From Tubulanus polymorphus (lineage: Eukaryota > Nemertea > Palaeonemertea > Tubulaniformes > Tubulanidae), in assembly GCF_964204645.1 (NCBI RefSeq), contig NC_134028.1, forward strand, positions 25,766,153 through 25,830,152: DNA of 64,000 nucleotides. The letters run 5' to 3'. Below are positions 10,259 to 58,716 of the stretch, one piece after another (within the stretch, counting starts at the first letter, position 1; each line of letters opens with the position of its first letter). Position numbers and translations under genes: made by a program. Under the pieces are notes generated by a model that saw only the letters and a list, made by a program, of their open reading frames with translations, was not told where the DNA came from and did no database searches.

Positions 10259-10332
10259 TATCATGTTATTTAGAATTTTAATGTCTTTCAGGCCGTGCCG
10301 AGCGATTGAAAGGCTCGGGCACAATCTGCATT

Positions 10333-11523
10333 ATGGAACATTCAGCGGCGAAGAAATTGTGGGCGCCGTGTCGGTTAGTCTCCAAGTTCGGAGTGTTAGC
10401 CGTTGTATTTCTGAGTTTAATGTGTGGATTTTATATAATGTTTATGATGGGTTACGTGTCGGCGTCTCGCCTACCGTCTGCGCGATTCGCAGTTCAAAAC
10501 ATGTCCGTAGTGAAACGCATTTTAGGATACGATGCGTCGACGATCGACCAACAGAAATCGAGAGTGCAACCGAAAAGCACAAGTTCGATCGCAACGACGA
10601 TAAAGAACTCGGCGAAAAATACGACCGTGAAAATGTCGGCGCATTCTTCGACAAAACCAACTCCGAAGCCGAAACCGAAAACTCCTCAGAAGCCCGCTTA
10701 CCGCCAGGAAACTTGTACGAATTGTAACTTACATAATTTCAATCTAATCATTAACGAACCAAATATATGCGCCACTGGGGACGTGGACTTATTGCTGATT
10801 ATTCTGACTTCGTTTTCGAAACGCGCTCAAAGAGACGCCATTCGCGAGACTTGGGCAAGCCCATCGAAAGGTAATATGGCGAACGTGCGTCACGTATTCT
10901 TATTTGGATCGGGAAAACCAGCCGACAATCAATTAGTGAAACAAGAAAGTTTGCAATTTCACGATATATTACAAGAGGATTTCGTTGATAGCTATTCGAA
11001 CCTCACGTATAAAACGAACATGGGTTTGAAATGGGCGACCAGCTTTTGCGAAAAGGCTAGATATATATTGAAAATAGACGATGATATGTGGGCGAACACT
11101 CCTAAATTAGTATCAAAAATAAAATCCGGGGAAATGGATAAATTAATCAAAGATCGAGGGTACGGCGGTCTGTGTGTTGGACCCGGAGGCCCGATTCGTG
11201 ACAAACGATCAAAATGGTATGCGTCGGTACGATCGTACCCGTCAAACGTTTACCCGCGCTTCTGTACCGGTCCCGGTTATATCATATCGACCAAAGTCGC
11301 CAAGGAAGTCGTGAGCGTGGCTAAAAACGTACCGTTTTTTCACTTAGAAGACATTTTCATGGCTATATGTATTAAAAAACTCGGGTATACGGCGCGGTCG
11401 CTCGCCGGTTTTCATAATTCCAAAGTTCGTTTCGATGCGTGCCATTACAAACGAACGGTGATGACGTCACACCAAGTTACCCCTGCGGAGCTGAGAACGG
11501 CGTGGAATGCATGGTGCATGTAA
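10333..11523 (+). CDS. GT31 beta-1,3-galactosyltransferase-like protein
   Basis: Single coding exon of 396 aa. It is a Golgi type II membrane enzyme of family GT31, expected to transfer a sugar from a UDP-sugar onto glycan acceptors through a beta-1,3 linkage. Visible order: short cytosolic tail, signal-anchor at about residues 19-41, a Lys/Pro/Thr-rich stem (about 100-122), then the catalytic domain with RDAIRETWASP, VFLFGSG, the metal-binding DDD at 249-251 (context LKIDDDMW), FCTGPGYIIS and the FHLEDIFMAICI (ED-V-like) motif. Usual length for the family. The start is the ATG at 10333; an in-frame TTG at 10306 is not needed. An AG acceptor at 10290-10291 suggests an upstream 5' UTR exon. 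Acceptor specificity (Gal, GlcNAc or GalNAc linkage) cannot be told from sequence. Confidence 0.9.
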   Translation: MEHSAAKKLWAPCRLVSKFGVLAVVFLSLMCGFYIMFMMGYVSASRLPSARFAVQNMSVVKRILGYDASTIDQQKSRVQPKSTSSIATTIKNSAKNTTVKMSAHSSTKPTPKPKPKTPQKPAYRQETCTNCNLHNFNLIINEPNICATGDVDLLLIILTSFSKRAQRDAIRETWASPSKGNMANVRHVFLFGSGKPADNQLVKQESLQFHDILQEDFVDSYSNLTYKTNMGLKWATSFCEKARYILKIDDDMWANTPKLVSKIKSGEMDKLIKDRGYGGLCVGPGGPIRDKRSKWYASVRSYPSNVYPRFCTGPGYIISTKVAKEVVSVAKNVPFFHLEDIFMAICIKKLGYTARSLAGFHNSKVRFDACHYKRTVMTSHQVTPAELRTAWNAWCM

Positions 11524-14142: not shown

Positions 14143-14604
14143 TCAAGCCGTCCATTTCAAACATCTCGTATCTTGATGAGTCGTTAGACATTTCACACAA
14201 CAATACCGTGTACCGCATTGAACGCACGTATAATTCGACGGAAATCCGCAAACGGCGCAGAAATTGCGTTCAGGGAACGTGGAACTCGATGCCATGGCCG
14301 TGAAGAAATTTGGTGGTTCACGTTGATTCATTTGTTCTTCTTCTACTAACGCTGCAAAACTTCGTTTCATCCGGTATTTCATGTAATCGCTTCCTTTTTT
14401 ACGTTTTTTTTTCGAAGTTTCCATCGACTCTTCGAACTTCGGCGCCCTTTTGCTCATTTTTAAATCAGCGTGCGGATCGTCCTGGTAATTGTCTTGATCT
14501 AAAGCTTCCAGCGCTTTTTTCATCCTCCGTCGGCGGGCGGCGACATCCAGAACTCGACGAGCTTGAACGTCTTTGATTCGTCCCGATTGCCTCTGATCCG
14601 TCAT
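14143..14604 (-). CDS. ZNHIT1: ZNHIT1, zinc finger HIT domain protein 1
   Basis: Intronless here, 153 aa, matching the usual length (about 154). ZNHIT1 (p18Hamlet, yeast Vps71/Swc6) is a subunit of the SRCAP/SWR1 nucleosome remodeller that deposits H2A.Z in the nucleus. The N-terminal half is basic and helical (RRVLDVAARRRRMKKALEAL; QDDPHADL). The C-terminal HIT zinc finger spans about 116-148 with ligands C116, C119, C127, C130, C135 or C136, C139, H143 and C148, in context FCAVCGFPSNYTCVQCG and ending CLKWTA. The start Met at 14602-14604 opens the family N-terminus. It is divergently arranged with BICC1, 608 bp away. Confidence 0.97.
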   Translation of the reverse strand: MTDQRQSGRIKDVQARRVLDVAARRRRMKKALEALDQDNYQDDPHADLKMSKRAPKFEESMETSKKKRKKGSDYMKYRMKRSFAALVEEEQMNQREPPNFFTAMASSSTFPERNFCAVCGFPSNYTCVQCGTRYCCVKCLTTHQDTRCLKWTA

Positions 14605-15212
14605 TATTCTCTACAAAAAAGGACGTCAAAATTAAAAAGGAGATTTAGGCTAGAAAAGATCTTTATTTTACATAGCAAATGTAGTGGCACCTTTCTCCCT
14701 TACAGCGCCTCACTGTCATCAGCTGTGAGTGAAAATATATTTGCCGATTCAACTAAGTAAATAAGAAATAAATACCTTGTCAAATTTTTTTCTACGTGAT
14801 GCAATATATTTTAATTGAATTGAATTTCCGCGCCCTCTGTGTTCAAGTCGTGGAACTAGACTAGCTCTGCACAATAAATCGTAATTGAATTGGTAAAATC
14901 TGTACTCAAAATGCACGCTGAAAGCGATGTCAATGGATTGCTTCTTTATGATTTTGAAAATAAATCAACAGAAAAATAGTGAATTAATTCCAGCTTCTAT
15001 TCAAAAGTTTAAGTCAATGAAGTCGAAAGCGCAAGCGCGTGTTGGCCAGTGACGTCGATGACGCTCGGGCACTCGCTCGCGTCTTGGATCTAGCAACTAC
15101 CGTCAAAATGTCAACAAAGTGTAAAATCGAGCACATGTTTCTCGAGGAGGAGCGGGGAACATGAATGAAAGCACCCTCCTTCAGTTGATTATTAGGATTT
15201 AACGAGCTGACA
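14605..15212. promoter_or_regulatory. Divergent ZNHIT1/BICC1 promoter region with CRE-like pair
   Basis: The 608 bp between the two start codons contains a GC-rich patch (about 15024-15095). In it, TGACGTCG (15050-15057) is directly followed by ATGACGCT (15058-15065), a CRE/ATF-like doublet. An in-frame TGA lies 27 nt before the BICC1 ATG. Bidirectional promoter activity is inference from the head-to-head layout. Confidence 0.5.
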
Positions 15213-43700: not shown

Positions 43701-45894
43701 TACAATATGAGAATAAACTCCTTCAATTATTGAACCAGCTGACAATTTATACGATATCTCAACAATGAGAATCTATTCCTGTAATGTCAAACATACACTA
43801 GACCAGTAAACTGTTACTCACCACACTGATTCATGACTTTCTGACAACTGAGAATCTGTTGGGCCGGACTACTAGGTGAAACAAGGGCACGCACAACCTG
43901 AAATTAAATCGTCGAACGATGAAAACCATCAGCAGAATCCCAAAAGGCTTCCATTAGTCGATGACTAATTTTCTACTACAGCATCTTAATAGTCATCTTC
44001 AGTTACAAATAAATATTTGAAAAACATCTCACTCAGAAATCCAAATTACTAACCTAAATCAGGGTCCAGTTTCACGAAAAAGTTTTAGCCTAAAACGGTC
44101 AAGTTTGAATTGTTGTCCTCATTGAAAACATGAAGTAACCAATGGCAATTACACCAAAAATTTGAGTTTAACTTTTTCGTGAAACCGGGCCCTGGGCTGA
44201 TAGAAGAATTCTCATATCTTACCTGTAGCATCAGATGAATATTAGTGACTTTTTGAGCGCTCCAGCCGCCCTGAGGGCTCTTCTCAACGGGCTGTAACTC
44301 GAAGAACGGAGCGATTTTCTGGATGTAACTTCCCTCTTTGAAGAAGTTCTGATTTGAGGCGTTGTTTTTCAAGAGGTTTAACAGTAACAGTAGACAATCC
44401 TCAACTACGATACCTGCGCACAACAAAGCAATAATTTTTTATAAAAATATATTCATACATAATAGACAGGGTGGCGCCACCTTCCCCCGTTTTACAAATC
44501 CCCTGAGTTTCCCATGTCATAACACAAAATTCCCAGAGGGAATCGCCGGTAGGTGAATGGAGATACAAATGACGTAGGCCTATCGATAAAGAAAGGCATG
44601 GTCAAATAAAATAGGGCTATCTAAATTCCCTCAGTTTTCCCTGATTTTTTTAATAGATTTCTCTGATTCCCTGAGTTTTCCAGGTCTGATCAGGGGCTAT
44701 CCTAAAAAATAGGATGCCACAATTTTCTTGTAATATTTACCTCCGTCACTATTGTCTTCCTCGCGTATTATTTCCAGTAATCTTTCGAACGCGTTTTCAA
44801 AAGCAACAATTTTCTGTATATTCGCGTTACCCTTCGTCAGTTGTTGCAAAAGCAAAAGACCCTGAAACATATAAAGACCACAACTTAGAAAATCATCACT
44901 TTAATATTTCTCCTCTTGGCTCCGGGATACTGGAAAATTGACTTACATCATTTCTGATAACTTCTCGACTGTCCGACAGTAGATCCATCATTTTTGAAAC
45001 GCCCATCGGGCTGACCAGGACGACTTCTTGCAAATCTTTACATCTATTCCCCAATAACGTAATCAGAAGCTTCACAGTTGGCCATCGCACGTGGAAATCG
45101 TACTCCTAAAAATTGGTCGAATCAATTTCTACCGAATCAAACGATTTTAATTACAAATTTGAAGAAAAATGTGTAGTTAATTTACCTCTAAAAGGGACAG
45201 TAACATCTGTACATTTTCCTGTTTTTTAATGAATATTTCCGTGAATTGGCCGCCTAAATCTTCCGGATAATTAGGATCCAAAACGGCAATGTTGTCTGAA
45301 AACGGATACATCAAGATAATAAATAAACGTCCCAAAATCGAAAGATTTTAATTTTCAAACAAATTTCTCCCTTGTATGAAAGTTTTCTCACCCTGTTCTT
45401 CATTAGGTTCGTTTGACATGATGTTACACAACGTTTCAAGCGCGTATCCAATAATTTCAGGATCTCCTCTGGAGAAATAAGAGAAAGAGCAGATGATTCT
45501 ACAGAATATCGAATATATCAAACTCAAGCTTCAAGCTGATACAATGAATGAAATGTGTCAACGCTATTTGAAATCATGTTTATTTAATAGCAGACAACAT
45601 GATGTAAACGATCATTGATGTTAAATAAGTTTACACAGAATTTCATTTCTTACATCTGTTACTAATAAGCGGTGAATTAAAAATCACAGAAAAGATGAAA
45701 AGGGTTTGTAAAAATTTCAATGTCAATAGAAATTAAAATTTAATACCTGTCAACTGCCAGCACGTTTAGCAGTATTTCCATGCTTTGAGTGCCTACTTCA
45801 AGGCAATATTTCTAAATGAAAAAAATTTGTTCTTTAAATAGGTGTACACCTATCTGTTATCAATTTATATAATAATACAATAATGACAACGATT

Positions 45895-47704: not shown

Positions 47705-50700
47705 TTATTTGCGCATTTCTCGGTCAATCCACGGTAGAATTGCCTTCACACTCGCGTACACTCCCGGAGCACCGGGTTTCGCGCAGCCGTGGCCCCACGA
47801 TGTTACGCCAACCAATGTGTATGAACCTAAAAAAGGAAAAAATGTGTCTGAAGTGATTTCAAACCATGTATGGATTGTTGTGATTTACAAAATGTTTGAC
47901 CAAGTTCCACAGCTGTAAATTAAAGCTAATACTGATATAGTTTATTCTCAATCTTGGTCAAAATGTCTAAAAAGACAGGACATGTCCTCAGAGTTTCGAT
48001 TTGACTCCAAGTTGAAACTCATTGAAAATGAACGAACTTCCAACTACTATAAGGGGTTTAATCTAACTTAGAAGGACCAAATATTTCTAGTTGCCACTAC
48101 CGGATCACGACCTAACGAACTCCGTGAATTACTTACCACCGACTTGGCAAACTAATGGTCCACCACTATCACCCGAACAAGAATCTATTCCACCTTCCTC
48201 GAAACCGGCGCACAACATCCTATCTGTTAAAGCGTTTTTGTACATCTTCGAACATTCATCATATTTGATTATAGGCACAACCGCCGCCAAAAGGGTCGAC
48301 GAACGAGCTGCAGAAAAGAATTACGAAATACTGCCGATTAGTTCTCACGTTATGTCATCATAGGTTGACTGTAGCCAGCCTAGCTTTGTTGTTTCAATAA
48401 GTGTTCCAATAAATCTGGGCCCAGTTTTATTGATTGGTTTTTTAACTTGAACTCAATTCAGTTTCAATTAAGTTAACCTCCAGGTTAGATTGAATATCAG
48501 TCTTTAAAACGTCCTGAATAATTTCAATTTTAGTGGCTTTAATGATACTGAAATATCGAATTCATACCGCCTCCAGTGCTTCCCCATCCGGAGATCAGAC
48601 ATTTCTGCCCGGTCATTGAGCCGAGGTCGATGTTCGCGGCCGGTAAACATGCCGCTTGTACTTGATCACCGAACCTAATACCGCGTCCATCCTTCGGCTT
48701 AATCTTAATCAAAGCGTAGTCGTAATCCACGGACTCATCTAATGCTGAAATAGACAAATGATATGTATAGAGGTTATTCGATCTTAAACATCTTGTTCTC
48801 AATCGACAAGAACACCGTAATCAAAAAAGTTACAAATTGTCAAATTGACAACTACCGAATAGCCTCTATAGGCTAAAATATAACTTTCAACGACTTCAAA
48901 TTTCGACGAAAGACCAGCCTGGTTTATGCGTCGTAAAATACTGATTACTGAACAACACTTTCAATATTCGTGGACTACGTACGATCGTATTCGGGGTGGG
49001 AAATGATTCTATCAACGTCGAATTCTTCTTCTGCCGCGTCAGGACTCTCGTTATCATGATCGCCGACTCTCATTTTATAGATTTCCTTGTCGCTGTCACT
49101 GAAATATCCAGAAATTCATTCTGATTCAAGACCATCGGACAAAGGTTTAGCACTTAAACGAAGCTGTCATTTCAACGGTGTCTACAGTCAGTCTGTTATA
49201 ACGCCACCCTTTTTAATGCCACTGCTCACAACGCCAACATTTTTCAGAGAACAAATTTCCTTTAATCTAACTAAAATTTACTGGAAAATACCTTGCTTTA
49301 TAACGCCAAATGCGTTATAATGCCATGTTTTTATTGGCCCGATCGTATCACAAAGGACTATAATATATTGTACTAAAATTCGTGTCGTTTTGGACACTTA
49401 ACCTATGTATCTAACACAAACAGATAGATAAGCAGTTTCTGATTATCTCGAGGACTGACTTACTGATAGCAATGGGCAGCAGATAGAATCCAATAATCGT
49501 TGAGAATGGTACCACCGCAAAACCGGCCGCTGTATTTTCTAACACCGACTTGCCACGGGTAAGCCCCGTACACTGCAGGAAAACCACCGACAATCCTGGG
49601 CTGGGCCTGATCTATCAATCTTTTACCGCAAGTAGCAACAGTTGCTGAAATAAGAATCCATTTCATCGATGTTAATATTTGGACATTCTTTTATAGTAAA
49701 ACAGCAAACGAAGTTGTTCATTCATACATGTAGTTGGTGGTGCAACAGTCGTTGGTTTGGGTATCGTAGTGGCAACTTCATTATCAGTGAGACAGACAAC
49801 CGAAACATCCTCAGCATGTCCACAGTCGTTGATTCCCCAATTTTTGTGTGAACATTCGCCTATCGTTTTCTCCGTGCCAGTGCATTCGACATCATCGAGC
49901 CAAATAATTGATTTACCTTTGCCGAACTTACCAGTATATGCGACGCCGTTAGTTCTGTATTAGAAATTACAGCAATTATGAAGTAAAGGGTAGAATTGGA
50001 CTAAGACGCAAACGGAGGGGTCAACATGAATGTCAGCCATACCCAAAACCGAGCATCTTACAGACCACACTGGCCGCTTTATTGTCAAATAAATCATCAC
50101 ATACAGATCCTTTAACGCCATTCCTTGTGATCTCAACACGACCTTCGCGACTATTTGTACCGTTTACGAGAGCCACATCAAAACTGTCTGTAAAAAAATA
50201 GCATGAACTGATTGTGATTATTCGATCCGGTGAGTGACGTGTTCGCAGAGGTGCATATGTTACCATTACGCGATACAGGTTAACCCTCTATCGTCCCCAG
50301 ATCTTTTGATAAACGCACATAGTTGTAAGCTTGTAGTCCTTACTTACCACAGCTTTTTTCGTCTGAATTGTCCAAGCAATCATTATCGCCATCACACACA
50401 AAAGAAACAGGCACGCAGTTCTTATTTTTACACTGGAATTCGTCATTTTTGCAGCCTATAGGAAATAGATTGGAATATGTAGTGTCGAAACGTTCATATC
50501 AGACAAGAAAACGTTGAATTGGACGAAACTCGCGTTTCATCTACCTCTATGTTTTGTTAGGCAAACTACTCCGGCCGATTCCCACGACTGACAATCGTGA
50601 TTTTTCCAACCTGAAAATTCACAGTCTGCCAACGATTTTTCGGTGCCATCACATTTCACGTCATCCATAAAGAATGTCAGCTGACCGTTCCCAAAGTGAC

Positions 50701-53700
50701 TTTTTCCTACAGCCCGATCCGCACCTCTGGTGAAAAATAAACATAGCACATTTTATGTCGTGCCGGAGAATGATTTAGCCTATTTCGTGTACTCACTGAT
50801 CATAGCCTAGCTGTTTGCAGACGACATCGGCATCGTCCGAACCCCAACGATCGTCGCACACGAGACCCCATTGACCGTTGTATTGAACCTCTACTCGTCC
50901 TTCAGATGCACTTCCGCCATCTGCTAATCGTATTCTAAATGGTGAGTCGGTACCTAATAAAGTTACGTTATACGTAATGACGATCATTGGATAATCATCG
51001 CCGTTTCACAAATACTCGCAATTTACTCGTAATTTAATTTACATCTTAACTTCAAATTTCTGTTGAACATACATGGCAAAGAGCTGCCAACTGCTACTAA
51101 GATGTCTCGCGACACACGATATAAGGTCCTTCAGTGATGGCATCGTTATGGCAATAGTGTATCAGGTAAGTCTCAATTTATCATCCAAATAGATGTAAGA
51201 TGACCAAGTAGGCCACAATTTATTGTAAGGGTCTATATGAATATACACCAATTTCTTTTAATGTCTTATGTTTGTTGTAATACTGGTGCAAATGTCTTTA
51301 CGTATTATGACTTCCAACCTACCGCAGCCTTCCTCGTCAGAAAGATCTCCACAATCATCCTTTCCGTTACACTTGTCTGTTTTACTGATACATCGTCCAT
51401 TTTTGCACGCAAAATTACTCGTTGCGTCGCACGACCCTGATAGAAACTAATTGTTATCAGATCTACGGTATTTCATTTGGGATTGAATCATGAAAACATT
51501 TTCTGATCTTTGCAACATTCTGAACATATCTTTTATTTCCTTCTTACCGATTAATGCTGTGACTTCGTAGTAATCGTTTCCAGTACTGGGTTCAATGTAT
51601 GCTCCTAACGTTTTCGAATTCGATTCGCTAAATAGACAACTTTCTTCGACCGCATTAAAGGTAAATGACCTACACACCCATTCAGAATTCAGACAAATTG
51701 ATGCGCACTGAAAACACAATCACGAATTTCTCAGGTCTTATACAATTATGAGTGAACTAAGAAGAATTGATCGGTAATCAATCGATTGATTCAAACCTAC
51801 ATTTTCAGTGGTAACATATAGATATTTCTGCGTCGCATACTCATCAACGACTAGTCTAGAATCCACATGCTTCGTGAATTCCGACAACTTATTTTCTAGT
51901 GTGAAAGCAAAAACAATCAACACATGTACATGTATTGGTACAAGAAGGAGCATCTCGGGACCGCTTTATAGACTATTACCTTAAACTCGGCGGTTAACTC
52001 AATTCATTTTCAATTGAATCAGCCCCACGGTTAAAGGTAATACACATCTATATAACCGGTCCTAGGAAAATTGAGGGTCAAAAGCATATAATGACTGATG
52101 GGACGTTTCAGGACTAAATTTACCGCATTGAAGTTCATCTTCACCATCGGGACAATCTTCCTCTCCGTCACAAGCCCACCAAGATGGAATACACGTCCTG
52201 CAAAAGAAAGCAGTATTATAGATCGTGTTAGATTCTTAAGGCTGGTTTTACGGACGGTTTCCAGCTAGCTTTTTCCAGCTGCCGCAGGAAACCGCTCGTC
52301 GTGAAAACCAGCCTTTAGCGCTAGAATCTTTGTACGCGTACGTACTTGGTTTGAGTTTTGTAACAATGATACATATTGTCTTGGCAAATTCCTCCGGGAC
52401 CTATAAATGAGTAATAAGGAATTATATACAACAAAATAATGCTCTGATACGTTATTGAATATGTAACTATTTGGATGACATATCATCAAAGTGATCCGGT
52501 CTAATTACTTTGGGTAGTTGGTACTGGAGCTGGTGTGGTTACATCTCCACATTTCTGTAGGTCGCAATATCCGTATTGTCCCAAATCGTGGTTGGTCCAA
52601 CACCAAGGTTTTTTATCGCTGTCCGGATTACGACAGTAGTTATGATCACCAAGACCCTGAAATTATGCGATCATTCGCAGTATATGCAAAAATGTGTAAC
52701 TTTATCATTTCTTATGATTTTTCAATTTCATCCACAAATTATGAATCAATGCATTATTGTTCAATGCAACCGTATATGTATTTAGTATTGCGTGCCCAAT
52801 TCCATGATCACAGTCAAGATTTGGACTTACAGCATCGGGGAATAAAGTTGGATTGGCAAGTGATGATCCGGTCCATTTCAAACACAAAGAACCCAATTGT
52901 GTCCTGAACGCTTTACCCGCATAGTCGACACCGTTACCATTGTAACATTCTGAAATCAGAATAAGTGAAATATCTCTTCTTCCCTCATTTCCAATGTTCA
53001 TAGAATGTTCATGATTCATAGAATCTAGACTATAGCATTAGTTGTATATGTACATCTAATTGGAACGTACCCTTTAGAGATGTTGTAACAGCATTTTTTT
53101 CACAGACGAATGGTAACTGATGCGTACACGATCCCGTAGTCCAGAAGTAGTACTGAACGTCGGCAATGTCAGCTCCTACTGGGAATCTATTTTTCAAAAT
53201 TATACATTTTCTAGTACTGTCTCCGCTGCTTATCAGCGGCTCTTTATTCGTCGTGGTTGATCCTGTAAATAGATTAGGGTTTTTAACTCCATCTTCGGAT
53301 CTTCGTTAATCGTCCCGACGCGTTATCAAATACGAACCACCATCTTTCGGAGGTATCCAGTTGCTAAATGTTACGTCATGTATGTCGTCGGCCCATGTCC
53401 ATTTCGTTGCATCGTTACCTTTTCTTTGTCCAGCCGTGTAAACGCCATTTGACGTTGCATCTACAGGAGACAAGTGATAGTAGCAGGCAAATGAGAAGAT
53501 ATTTTGTTCATTATGATATACCTGTTCTTCTATATACCTAGCTACATTATCTTTTAGATTTCAAAGTTAGATAAGATCCATTTTATCAGATGTATTAAGA
53601 TCTATCTTCTACTTGTCAAATATGTTAAGGTCTATCATCTATTTATCAGATTTATTAAGATCTATCATCTATTTATCAGATATGTTAAGATATATCTATT

Positions 53701-55223
53701 GTTATTACTACTTACCTAATTGTGTATTGTAAAGAAGGTCGGAGATAAAGTCGTTCTCCAGCTGTGACTCAATATTCACTAACCGGGCATCGAAACTTTT
53801 GCAAGTAGCGCGAGCATTTCGAAATGATTTCTTATCGGTGAAGACTTTGTAACAAATACCATGGTTATTGATCCAGTCCACAGGACAACCTGAAAACAAC
53901 AACAAATTTATCTCGTCTTTTTCTAAGAAATTAAGTAATATTTATTGCTTGCGATAAAGGGTCACGACGCGGTTTTTGTCTGTTCAAAGGTACGGACAAC
54001 GCATTATTCGTGGCAAAAAGTTTGATCCTGGTTTGTTTCATCATGGACTTAAGTATGAATATATGTATCTTAACAGGAGTTATCTTCAGCAGTAAAGCGG
54101 AAGATGGCTACATCTATTAGGATACAATAGAAACGTTGAAATTAACTACTAGCTCAACGAAACCTTTCGGAATCGTTTTCATTTTGTATTGTGGGTTTTA
54201 CTGTATTTCATAATTTACCTGGAGCTAACCGACACTCAACTCCTGACGACTCAAACGACGAACAATCGTGGTTTTCATCGTAAGCGCAATCGTGTAGCGA
54301 CTTCTCATCCCCGAAACAGAAAGTATCGTCCATCAGTACGTCATTGTAATTCCATTTACCTCGTCCATACCCGGCTGTGGTTATCGCTTTAGAAGCACCT
54401 CTACAATGATCATTATAATCATCAATAACAGTGAAATAGTTGAAAACAGATAATGATCGTGGATTAAAGCTCACAATTTGAATCCGAGCTGTCGACAAGT
54501 GACATTAGCATCTTTCATATCCCAGTAGTCGTCGCATACTATTCCCCAAGATTCTTGTAAATATACCTCAACTCTTCCAGCGTGACCAGCAGCGCTACCG
54601 TTACCTCGTAATCTATATTCATAAACGAAAAATATCAACTATAAAAAGTTAAGTCATTGAATGTGGACTAATTTTAACACACAACACTTCGGCTCCGTTC
54701 CCACTTACCGAACTAGTTGACCGCTTTTCGGCAGCCATATCGGTTTGTTTTCGATAAATTCCTCTTCGATTATTACCTCTTCGTCATCGGTTATTTCATC
54801 TTCATGAAAATCTGGTATTGTCGGGGCTGGTGTTGTTGGGACTTCCTCTAACTCTTCCTCTTCTTCGCTATAATCACCCCAACCCCATATAGCACGTTTA
54901 CTTCTCTCACGTGTTCCTGCGCTCTTTCCCACATCTTCGCTATCGACCTGAAAAATCGTTACGCCAAATTTCTTGATTTTGGATTGATTACAACGTAACT
55001 CGGTTGCACAGTCGTGACTTCTAAAGATCTTTGAAGCAGTTTATATGTTGTTACATTGGCCAGAGAACAAAAATGTAATTTGTCCTGACTATGCAAAAGA
55101 AATATCTTCTGTTCTAAGAATGATTGTGGGATGTTTTATGGAACGTACCTTGTATTTTGGTCTTGCTTCACTGTGCATTAGCACAATGGCCAGGACCACT
55201 AGCTTCAAGATACTTATATGCAT
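47705..55223 (-). CDS. Mosaic trypsin-like serine protease with SRCR, CTLD, kringle, LDLa and PAN domains
   Basis: 24 exons, 1157 aa: 55149-55223, 54709-54947, 54475-54612, 54219-54400, 53716-53889, 53338-53460, 53071-53262, 52831-52949, 52509-52656, 52346-52400, 52124-52197, 51801-51895, 51548-51707, 51323-51436, 50797-50953, 50545-50726, 50348-50455, 50043-50187, 49728-49954, 49464-49644, 48983-49098, 48568-48744, 48137-48307, 47705-47826. Order: signal peptide (1-20), acidic linker after a furin-like RERSKR, SRCR (105-211), C-type lectin-like (212-374), six-Cys kringle (375-455), LDLa (464-506), PAN/apple (507-591), LDLa, SRCR, LDLa, SRCR (to about 890), Thr/Pro linker, then S1 protease. 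The zymogen site is R919/IVGG; the triad is H960, D1010, S1108; D1102 marks a trypsin-like pocket. Kringle plus SRCRs plus trypsin recalls neurotrypsin (PRSS12), but the CTLD, PAN and LDLa modules do not, so I give no symbol. Secreted; substrate unknown. Confidence 0.95.
53575..53700. repeat. Tandem repeat, about 37-bp unit, 3-4 copies
   Basis: ATTAAGATCTATC-TCTA-TT-TCAGAT-T words repeat head to tail in the protease intron just after (on its strand) the exon at 53716-53889. Non-coding. Confidence 0.6.
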
Positions 55224-55799: not shown

Positions 55800-58716
55800 A
55801 TGGTAAGTAAGTAGCATGGCTTATCTGTGTATGTTATTGGAGAGAGCTTCGATTTAGAAACGATCCTCTATTTTGATTTTAGTCTAAAGATAATCCAGCG
55901 TTTGTACCGGATATATCGACGGATTCGTCTGATATAAAATTGTCCGTAACTCCGACACCTGAGACTAAACCGCAGAAAACAGATAATAGTTGTTGTTCAC
56001 CACGATGTCGAACTGTCTTCCTCGTATTTTTGAGTTTCATCGCTGTTTCCTACGCCATTGCGATCACGATAGTTCTTATTCACGAAGGTATGAAATATCA
56101 ACCATTCATAAAGTGAATTGCTTTGCGATGTCATCGACGATAGCGTGTTTGATAAACGGATCGCATTCTGATCGGAAACTTCTTTTTCAGTTTATTTCTC
56201 TGATGAAGGAGAACACGGAATACAACAGGTAACATTATTGTTAATTCTGAAACTACCTTGCACAAATCCACTTCACTCTACTCTTTATCATCGTTCAATC
56301 TACAGAAACAGTTCACCGCTTATGAAGTTCTTGCCAATACGGCACGGGGATACATCGATGTGAGGAAGGGAGCTCATATGTTCTGGTGGCTTTGGTATGC
56401 TATTCCGAAACATACTTACAAAGAAAAACCACTAATCTTATGGATACAGGTGAAAGATTCTTCTTTTGATATCTTCTATTCTATGCTTCTGCAATATTGA
56501 CACATATTTAGGTCTATGTTGTAGGGTGGTCCAGGAGAGTCCGGTGTCGGTATTGGTGGATTTATGGAAATCGGTCCGTATGATACAGATCTCAAATATA
56601 AAAAAGGAAACTGGGTATGGGTACTGGTAACTCTTACGGTACTGGTAACTCTTATGGGTACTGGTACCACTGGTAACTCTTTTTGGTTTGAGAATCTTTG
56701 TCCATATAAAACAGACGCCAAACATCATTACCAAGCCCTTTAGGCTGAAAAAAAATGATACCTTGTTTCTCATTGCTGCTGAGCTTAGCTAGTTAAAAAC
56801 CTATCCAACCTGTGCATTACTTACTAAAGATATCACGATCTGGCGAACAGTAACAGATCTGACAGTTATAGAAAAGAAACTGATTACAAATTCTTTTGCG
56901 ATTTACAAAAGTGACCCGGCCGATTGGGAGAAACAAGACATTAATTAATTCGTTATAAATCTGTTCACTAATTTGCAGGCGGTTCATGCTAATCTGTTGA
57001 TAGTTGATAGTCCGGTAGGAGTTGGTTACAGTTACGTAGACAACGAGTCTCTGAATACTAAAAATACTGATGAAATTATAGCTGATTTAATGTCTTTCCT
57101 AAAGATTTTTTTCAACAAACATCCAGAATTTAAGGTAAACATGACATACATATTTGCAATTTGAATTTCAACTAAGATACAACATGTAAGTAGCTTGCCA
57201 CGGATCTTATGAATTTTTGTATACTTTGCAGACGATACCGTTTCATATATTCGGCGAGTCGTATGGCGGGCGAATAGCGCCTTTACTTGCTAAACAATTA
57301 CACAACGTACGTTCATCGGATACAGATCTGAAGTATTTTTCCAAACCTTCTCGTCAAAATCACCTACAACATTACGTTCTGAAAAAGCGATGAATAAGAA
57401 GTGTAGACTATCTATGTTTATGGAATTTTCGTTGCAGGAAATAATTGGTGGCAAAATGGAATGTTTACTGAAAGGCATAGTTTTAGGTGGACCCGCGGTA
57501 GATATGATGATAGGACCGGTTGCAACGTGGGCCCAATACTTATATACAATGGTAAAAATTAAACCGAATCGAAGCCATCAATGCGCTTTTGAAAACTAAT
57601 CTAAGAACTTTCCTTTTTCAAAGTCGATCATAGAAGAATCGAAAAAAGACGAATACGAACGAGAATATCAGAAATTAATGGTAACATACCAGACAAAGAA
57701 TTATACTGCGATAAGCGAGGAATTCCAAAAGCTTTCTCAGATACCGTACGGTACTGGCATAGACATGTATAACGTGCTCACTTGGAACACAATCGAAGGT
57801 GAGTAAAAACGAATTCGATGAGAAAATAACATAAAACGACGATGAATTTAGTTAACGTAGTTTTTAAATAAAAGACAATTTTAGCCAATATTTTTATTTC
57901 TTTTGTAGAGCTGTTTGGTCCCGTAACTAAACTAATGAACGGAGAGATGAAGAAAGCTGTTGAAATTGTTCCCGAAAACCTAGTTTGGACTGGTAATTGA
58001 GTCACCTCACCGCTAGTAAAGTATCCAGTTTTTATCGTTGCAATGTTAATCAATGTTATATTTTCTCTAATTTTTCCCGCAGATATGAATACAACCGTTA
58101 TGGCGAACGAGTTTGATAATGTTTTTATACCCGTTGTTGACACAGGTAGTTTTTCAGTCGTTATTGATTTCAATTCAGACATCTACCTCTTGACACAAAG
58201 CCTGCAGCACCAGTTGCTTATTTTTCTTGCAGTCGATTTCCTACTGACAAATACCAGTTATCGAGTAACTATTTACAATGGACAATTGGATGTTGTCGTT
58301 AATACGATAGGTAACGTTCGCTTCGTTCGCACAGTTCGAAGATGAAAATATTTTATGATTGAAAAAAGGTATTGTATTAACTGGAATACGAGTTTTTTTG
58401 AATAGGGACAGAAAAATGGTTAAAGAAACTGACATGGTCCGGCATGGAGACCTATTATAACCAAACTCGTACAACTCTAAGAATTAAACCGAAATCAAAA
58501 CCAATAGGATTCAAGAAAACCTACGATAAATTTACATTCTACTGGATACTTAAATCTGGTCATCAGGTAAAATTTAATTCTTTTGATAATGAGACGATTA
58601 TCATTGGATCTGAGGTCGTAGGTTTCTGATAAAAACATTTCTTATTCATTTAGGTTCCACACGATGCTCCTCTGGCAGGCGAATACATGCTCATAGATAT
58701 ACTGAAAAATACCTAA
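55800..58716 (+). CDS. SCPEP1: Membrane-anchored SCPEP1-like serine carboxypeptidase, copy A
   Basis: Fourteen exons, 482 aa: 55800-55802, 55883-56087, 56191-56228, 56306-56449, 56525-56614, 56979-57134, 57232-57306, 57438-57551, 57624-57798, 57909-57992, 58083-58145, 58233-58310, 58406-58566, 58654-58716. Peptidase family S10; SCPEP1 removes C-terminal residues from peptides. Seen: LWIQGGPGESG (oxyanion loop), VDSPVGVGYSYV, FGESYGG with nucleophile S222, VYNGQLD-type IYNGQLDVVV with D402, and FYWILKSGHQVPHDAP with H461; the triad is complete. Unlike the secreted human protein, residues 45-67 form a hydrophobic segment preceded by a Cys/Arg-rich cytosolic tail, so it is probably a type II membrane protein. 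The first coding exon appears to be only the ATG, followed at once by GTAAGT; copy B shares this. An MITE lies in the intron 56615-56978. Confidence 0.92.
56616..56680. repeat. Small minisatellite of GGTACTGGTAACTCTTA units
   Basis: Three to four imperfect units directly follow the exon ending at 56614. The paralogous intron in copy B has only one related word (AACTGGTAAC), so the array expanded after, or contracted since, the gene duplication. Confidence 0.7.
56743..56948. mobile_element. Tourist-like MITE, copy 3 (intron of SCPEP1-like copy A)
   Basis: It starts GGCTGAAAAAAAATGATACC and ends with GACCCGGCCGATTGGGAGAA; the last part of the right terminus is lost. Compared with 4625-4845 it lies in the opposite orientation. 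Confidence 0.65.

Follow-up and report, generated by a model that had tools for sequence, protein, structure and literature searches.

The gene on the minus strand at 55223..47705 of the window (the 64,000-nucleotide stretch of Tubulanus polymorphus DNA that was analysed) is very likely a lophotrochozoan member, and probably an ortholog, of the Tequila/SP22D/SP23 protease family that lacks the chitin-binding modules. This assignment is based on module order and composition, the family members being compared through their published descriptions, and mobile modules could have been assembled twice, which counts against orthology. The module plan was already known, with its pieces spread across arthropods and chordates; new is a copy of the family in a lophotrochozoan, and the value of the finding is mostly evolutionary.

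Gene structure and module content

The gene was rebuilt exon by exon and is comprised of 24 exons and 23 GT-AG introns, with a start codon at 55223, a stop codon ending at 47705, and a predicted product of 1157 aa having no internal stops, the same numbers as those given in the initial annotation. The introns span 70-369 nt. The domain scan of the joined translation against Pfam-A, in which all modules counted lie above the curated gathering cut-off, returned the ten-module order given in the initial annotation: SRCR, Lectin_C, Kringle, Ldl_recept_a, PAN_1, Ldl_recept_a, SRCR, Ldl_recept_a, SRCR and Trypsin. The Pfam-A spans are 231-366 for Lectin_C, 376-450 for Kringle, 514-586 for PAN_1 and 920-1151 for Trypsin, next to three SRCR and three Ldl_recept_a matches. 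With whole-protein E-values of 3.5e-76 (SRCRs), 1e-64 (protease) and, at the weak end, 1.5e-7 (lectin-like module), the ten-module match is far beyond chance. The number of cysteines per module is also as expected, with six in each SRCR, LDLa, kringle and lectin module, four in the PAN module and ten in the protease. The features are as follows.

55149..55223, minus strand: exon 1, start codon and signal peptide (gene rebuild)
54709..54947, minus strand: exon 2, propeptide-like linker with an RERSKR basic site and an acidic stretch (no Pfam match)
54219..54612, minus strand: exons 3-4, SRCR1, aa 105-208, with a phase 2 intron inside (Pfam)
53071..53889, minus strand: exons 5-7, C-type lectin-like module, aa 212-366 (Pfam Lectin_C, 2.2e-10 with the module scanned alone)
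52509..52949, minus strand: exons 8-9, kringle, aa 375-451, and a Thr/Pro linker (Pfam Kringle, 3.5e-17; plasminogen kringle alignments)
52124..52400, minus strand: exons 10-11, LDLa1, aa 466-507 (Pfam)
51548..51895, minus strand: exons 12-13, PAN, aa 508-590 (Pfam PAN_1, 3.1e-11 with the module scanned alone)
51323..51436, minus strand: exon 14, LDLa2, aa 592-630 (Pfam)
50545..50953, minus strand: exons 15-16, SRCR2, aa 636-739, with a phase 2 intron placed as in SRCR1 (Pfam)
50348..50455, minus strand: exon 17, LDLa3, aa 743-778 (Pfam)
49728..50187, minus strand: exons 18-19, SRCR3, aa 779-882, and a Thr/Pro linker (Pfam)
47705..49644, minus strand: exons 20-24, trypsin domain and stop codon (Pfam Trypsin, 1e-64)

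The start of exon 6 is the sole real ambiguity of the gene model. An alternative acceptor at 53550 lies 90 nt earlier and would add 30 aa; it was dropped, as its splice score is -3.35 bits versus 7.85 for the acceptor at 53460, and the Lectin_C match falls to 33.8 bits versus 41.7. Weak splice scores were also found for the acceptor of exon 12 and the donors of exons 3 and 9. The intron separating the first two lectin exons contains approximately four tandem copies of a 30-bp unit (53582-53696).

Phase 1 introns are located at all nine module borders, compared with five of the 14 other introns (Fisher p = 0.0024), so that the earlier statement that most borders are in phase 1 was an understatement. 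Each of the three SRCRs, which are mutually 37-48% identical, contains an internal phase 2 intron at a common position after an LGF/LGY motif, and on account of this shared position they look like old duplicates.

Protease and binding modules

The intact triad, zymogen site and pocket Asp ascribed to the protease are all present in the sequence. The zymogen site reads QPR/IVGG, with Arg919 followed by IVGG from residue 920, and the catalytic triad consists of H960, D1010 and S1108. In the S1 pocket, D1102, G1129 and the Gly before VY occupy the trypsin-specificity positions D189/G216/G226, and D1102 together with G1129 predicts Arg/Lys specificity. The product, previously expected to be an active trypsin-like enzyme with many binding modules, is thus predicted to be a secreted, trypsin-specific zymogen that is probably active. 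The propeptide Cys (ATCGKR) aligns with that of TMPRSS2, and a C122-equivalent is found in AACLP, which suggests that the protease and the binding chain would stay linked after cleavage. In TMPRSS2, enteropeptidase and plasminogen the cleaved chains remain linked. The N-terminal RSKR site, located before the acidic linker, could release a short propeptide.

The lectin-like module possesses neither the EPN/QPD nor the WND motif, reading NWIPPKDGG and YYFWTTGSC at these places, and is therefore probably not a standard Ca-dependent sugar binder. Lysine-binding kringles are recognized by Asp55/Asp57, aromatic residues at 62 and 72, and Arg71. Alignment with the plasminogen kringles showed that the Tubulanus kringle has kept the anionic pair (NPDSD) and the W62- and Y72-equivalents, and that a Gln stands where plasminogen kringle 4 has Arg71. 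The SRCRs keep the Asp-Asp and Glu positions that are typical of cation-binding SRCRs, and the LDLa modules retain the acidic DC..SDE pattern.

Comparison with the Tequila/SP22D/SP23 family

The module order had been considered unusual, a view that did not hold: the comparison had been made with neurotrypsin only, and the same series was tabulated in a 2006 survey for the honey bee (Apis mellifera) protein SP23, whose string reads 4LC-4CBD-SR-Clect-KR-LDLA-PA-2LDLA-SP (PMC1761132). SP23, which was grouped with Drosophila Tequila (CG4821) and Anopheles SP22D (Ag22D) and assigned trypsin specificity, T(DGG), shares with the nemertean protein the order SRCR, C-type lectin, kringle, LDLa, PAN, LDLa repeats and trypsin (PMC1761132). 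Once the low-complexity and chitin-binding part is removed, the SP23 string equals the Tubulanus series, except that the two C-terminal SRCRs are unshown; the string shows a single SR, these two being deduced from the stated likeness of SP23 to Tequila. The bee protein differs in its length of approximately 2323 aa, with low-complexity regions and four N-terminal chitin-binding domains that the nemertean protein lacks, and in its activation site (IFQK/VVRG versus QPR/IVGG). The module order is therefore to be regarded as a conserved plan and not as an oddity.

Among the traits of the family, the combination of LDLa and two SRCRs ending in trypsin was found in exons 14-24 (Pfam), and the SRCR-lectin-kringle-LDLa-PAN series is arranged as in the SP23 string. 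The N-terminal chitin-binding modules are absent: the Pfam-A scan detected none in the 1157-aa protein, and upstream of the gene there is little room for one. Such modules are not strictly family-defining, since Daphnia SCV4, a co-ortholog of SCV3, has no chitin-binding domain (PMC2685406). SCV3 itself has three SRCRs, as in Tubulanus, the first of which was thought to have been lost in dipterans (PMC2685406); it carries the chitin-binding modules, and lectin and kringle modules are unreported for both Daphnia proteins. For Tenebrio Tequila (SerP55), described as CBM(3), LDL(3), SRCR(2), PAN (PMC11172050), the LDL, SRCR and PAN counts equal those of the C-terminal part of the Tubulanus protein, while lectin and kringle modules are again unreported. 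Drosophila Tequila/Graal and Anopheles SP22D/SCRASP1 are likewise secreted mosaic trypsins with two SRCRs, LDLa modules and a C-terminal protease, and differ by their chitin-binding domains (15 in Tequila); the descriptions consulted for both mention no lectin, kringle or first SRCR. A literature search of partial coverage found no published lophotrochozoan protein with the same module order.

The gene could instead be an invertebrate neurotrypsin (a PRSS12 ortholog) with a mainly synaptic or neural role, which we consider improbable. Kringle, SRCR and trypsin modules do occur together in one chain, and SRCR3 of mouse neurotrypsin (6h8m) matches Tubulanus SRCR3 at 2.2e-24; single SRCRs of SCARA5, and also CD163 and CD6, however, outscore those of neurotrypsin. 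The neurotrypsin plan consists of a Pro-rich start, a kringle, three to four tandem SRCRs, a furin-type activation site and the protease, and includes no LDLa, PAN or lectin module (PMC9616769). In the Tubulanus protein, by contrast, the SRCRs are kept apart by LDLa repeats, a first SRCR, a lectin and a PAN module come in addition, and AQPR/IVGG, where activation would occur, is not a furin site, RSKR being present solely in the N-terminal linker. Since Tequila has been called a neurotrypsin ortholog, this interpretation and membership of the Tequila family overlap.

Two further explanations are each very improbable. Gene prediction might have fused two adjacent genes, one for an SRCR-lectin-kringle protein and one for an LDLa-SRCR-trypsin protease: the gene model is a predicted one, the halves are separable modules, and descriptions of fly Tequila give it just the LDLa/SRCR/protease part and chitin-binding modules. 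The largest intron, however, measures only 369 nt, the frames agree across 23 of 23 introns, and SP23 shows this order within a single predicted chain (PMC1761132). Alternatively, common modules might have been newly assembled in the nemertean lineage, convergent with the insect proteins. Relatedness through independent module acquisition, or epaktology, is a known trap (PMC3927612), and the modules are mobile, with all borders in phase 1; yet the occurrence of the series SR-Clect-KR-LDLA-PA-LDLA...SP in the same order in the honey bee is unlikely by chance, and amphioxus has the same module set minus the lectin (PMC6337849). All three explanations rank below membership of the Tequila/SP22D/SP23 family.

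Evolutionary implications

SRCR, kringle, LDLRA, PAN and trypsin modules are joined in proteases of amphioxus (PMC6337849 Table 2), which thus resemble the Tubulanus protein in having the same module types in a single chain, with the difference that no lectin is listed. The authors put them, with a bootstrap value of 41%, at the root of the plasminogen-activator group, and some copies were predicted to be inactive (PMC6337849). The ten-module core is probably older than the divergence of arthropods and lophotrochozoans. We lean slightly towards a scenario in which the ten-module chain represents the ancestral Tequila/neurotrypsin-like form, present before arthropods and lophotrochozoans (perhaps also amphioxus) diverged, to which arthropods would have added chitin-binding modules and from which flies would have lost the lectin, kringle, PAN and first SRCR modules, the Tubulanus gene having stayed near the ancestral state. 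A lophotrochozoan copy in the honey bee order, having neither chitin-binding modules nor a close paralog, makes the history of the family testable, in particular the question of which modules were present ancestrally and that of inheritance or double gain of the kringle seen in neurotrypsin and SP23. The copy further suggests that the fly protein, although well studied, is a reduced form; this is relevant wherever fly phenotypes are extrapolated to other animals.

Proposed function

According to the best reading of this anatomy, the Tubulanus protein would be a protease that acts locally in wounding or immunity: the binding modules would determine where it acts, and the trypsin domain would perform limited proteolysis there. 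Directed by its N-terminal signal peptide (exon 1), the secreted protein would circulate or sit in the matrix as an inactive zymogen, which the SRCR, LDLa, kringle, PAN and lectin-like modules may tether to other proteins or to polyanions in wounds, on microbial surfaces or in the matrix. A trypsin-like enzyme, possibly the protease itself, would then cut after Arg919, which would free a new N-terminus and switch on an Arg/Lys-specific protease, still disulphide-linked to the binding chain, that cuts a local substrate. The anatomy is read directly from the sequence; the site of action, the activator and the substrate in Tubulanus are what we infer. As with neurotrypsin, the protein may act in the nervous system.

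In insects, Tequila is induced by infection and affects memory; it is also induced by wounding and abundant in the haemolymph (PMC11050137). The tequila null fly displays no gross phenotype and its gelatinase bands are unchanged (PMC11050137), so that even the insect function is unsettled. Anopheles SP22D binds chitin, and the chitin-binding modules that give it this known ligand are absent from the Tubulanus protein. SP22D has been reported to mark granulocytes, a cell specificity that a promoter reporter failed to confirm (PMC12675505).

Copy number and genomic surroundings

A genome-wide search of the 268-Mb Tubulanus assembly found no second locus with the SRCR1-lectin-kringle series, and the gene is thus single copy. 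Its nearest relative among the proteases is an LDLa-trypsin gene located 0.87 Mb away (C4:26.69 Mb), with no SRCR or kringle in the 8 kb examined. Other SRCR arrays were found on C5 and C4, and kringle arrays elsewhere in the genome; a dense array of SRCR exons at G000:C5:17565778-17603626 is probably an SRCR-rich gene cluster.

Within the window, a divergent gene on the plus strand (55883-56500), approximately 0.7 kb upstream of the protease start codon, encodes a membrane-spanning stretch followed by a serine carboxypeptidase-like exon, whose Peptidase_S10 match lies slightly below the Pfam cut-off. Downstream of the protease gene, the minus strand carries an exon resembling the armadillo tether of p115/USO1, a vesicle transport factor (44088-44438; sub-threshold Pfam match). 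Farther away are a long open frame (10282-11520) matching Galactosyltransferase (PF01762; E 2.7e-48), and exons matching zf-HIT (14146-14610) and GET4 (439-885), both ordinary housekeeping genes.

The assembly also contains an apparently intact Hox cluster (G000:C6:5318228-5634756) of approximately ten homeodomains on one strand, running from Post2-type to anterior genes. Lox5, Lox2/Lox4 and Post2-type Hox genes mark lophotrochozoans and place the animal in that group, probably with the molluscs, annelids or nemerteans; the cluster includes homeodomains of the Lox5 type, the Lox2/Lox4 type (with a Ubd-A-like peptide) and the Post2 type.
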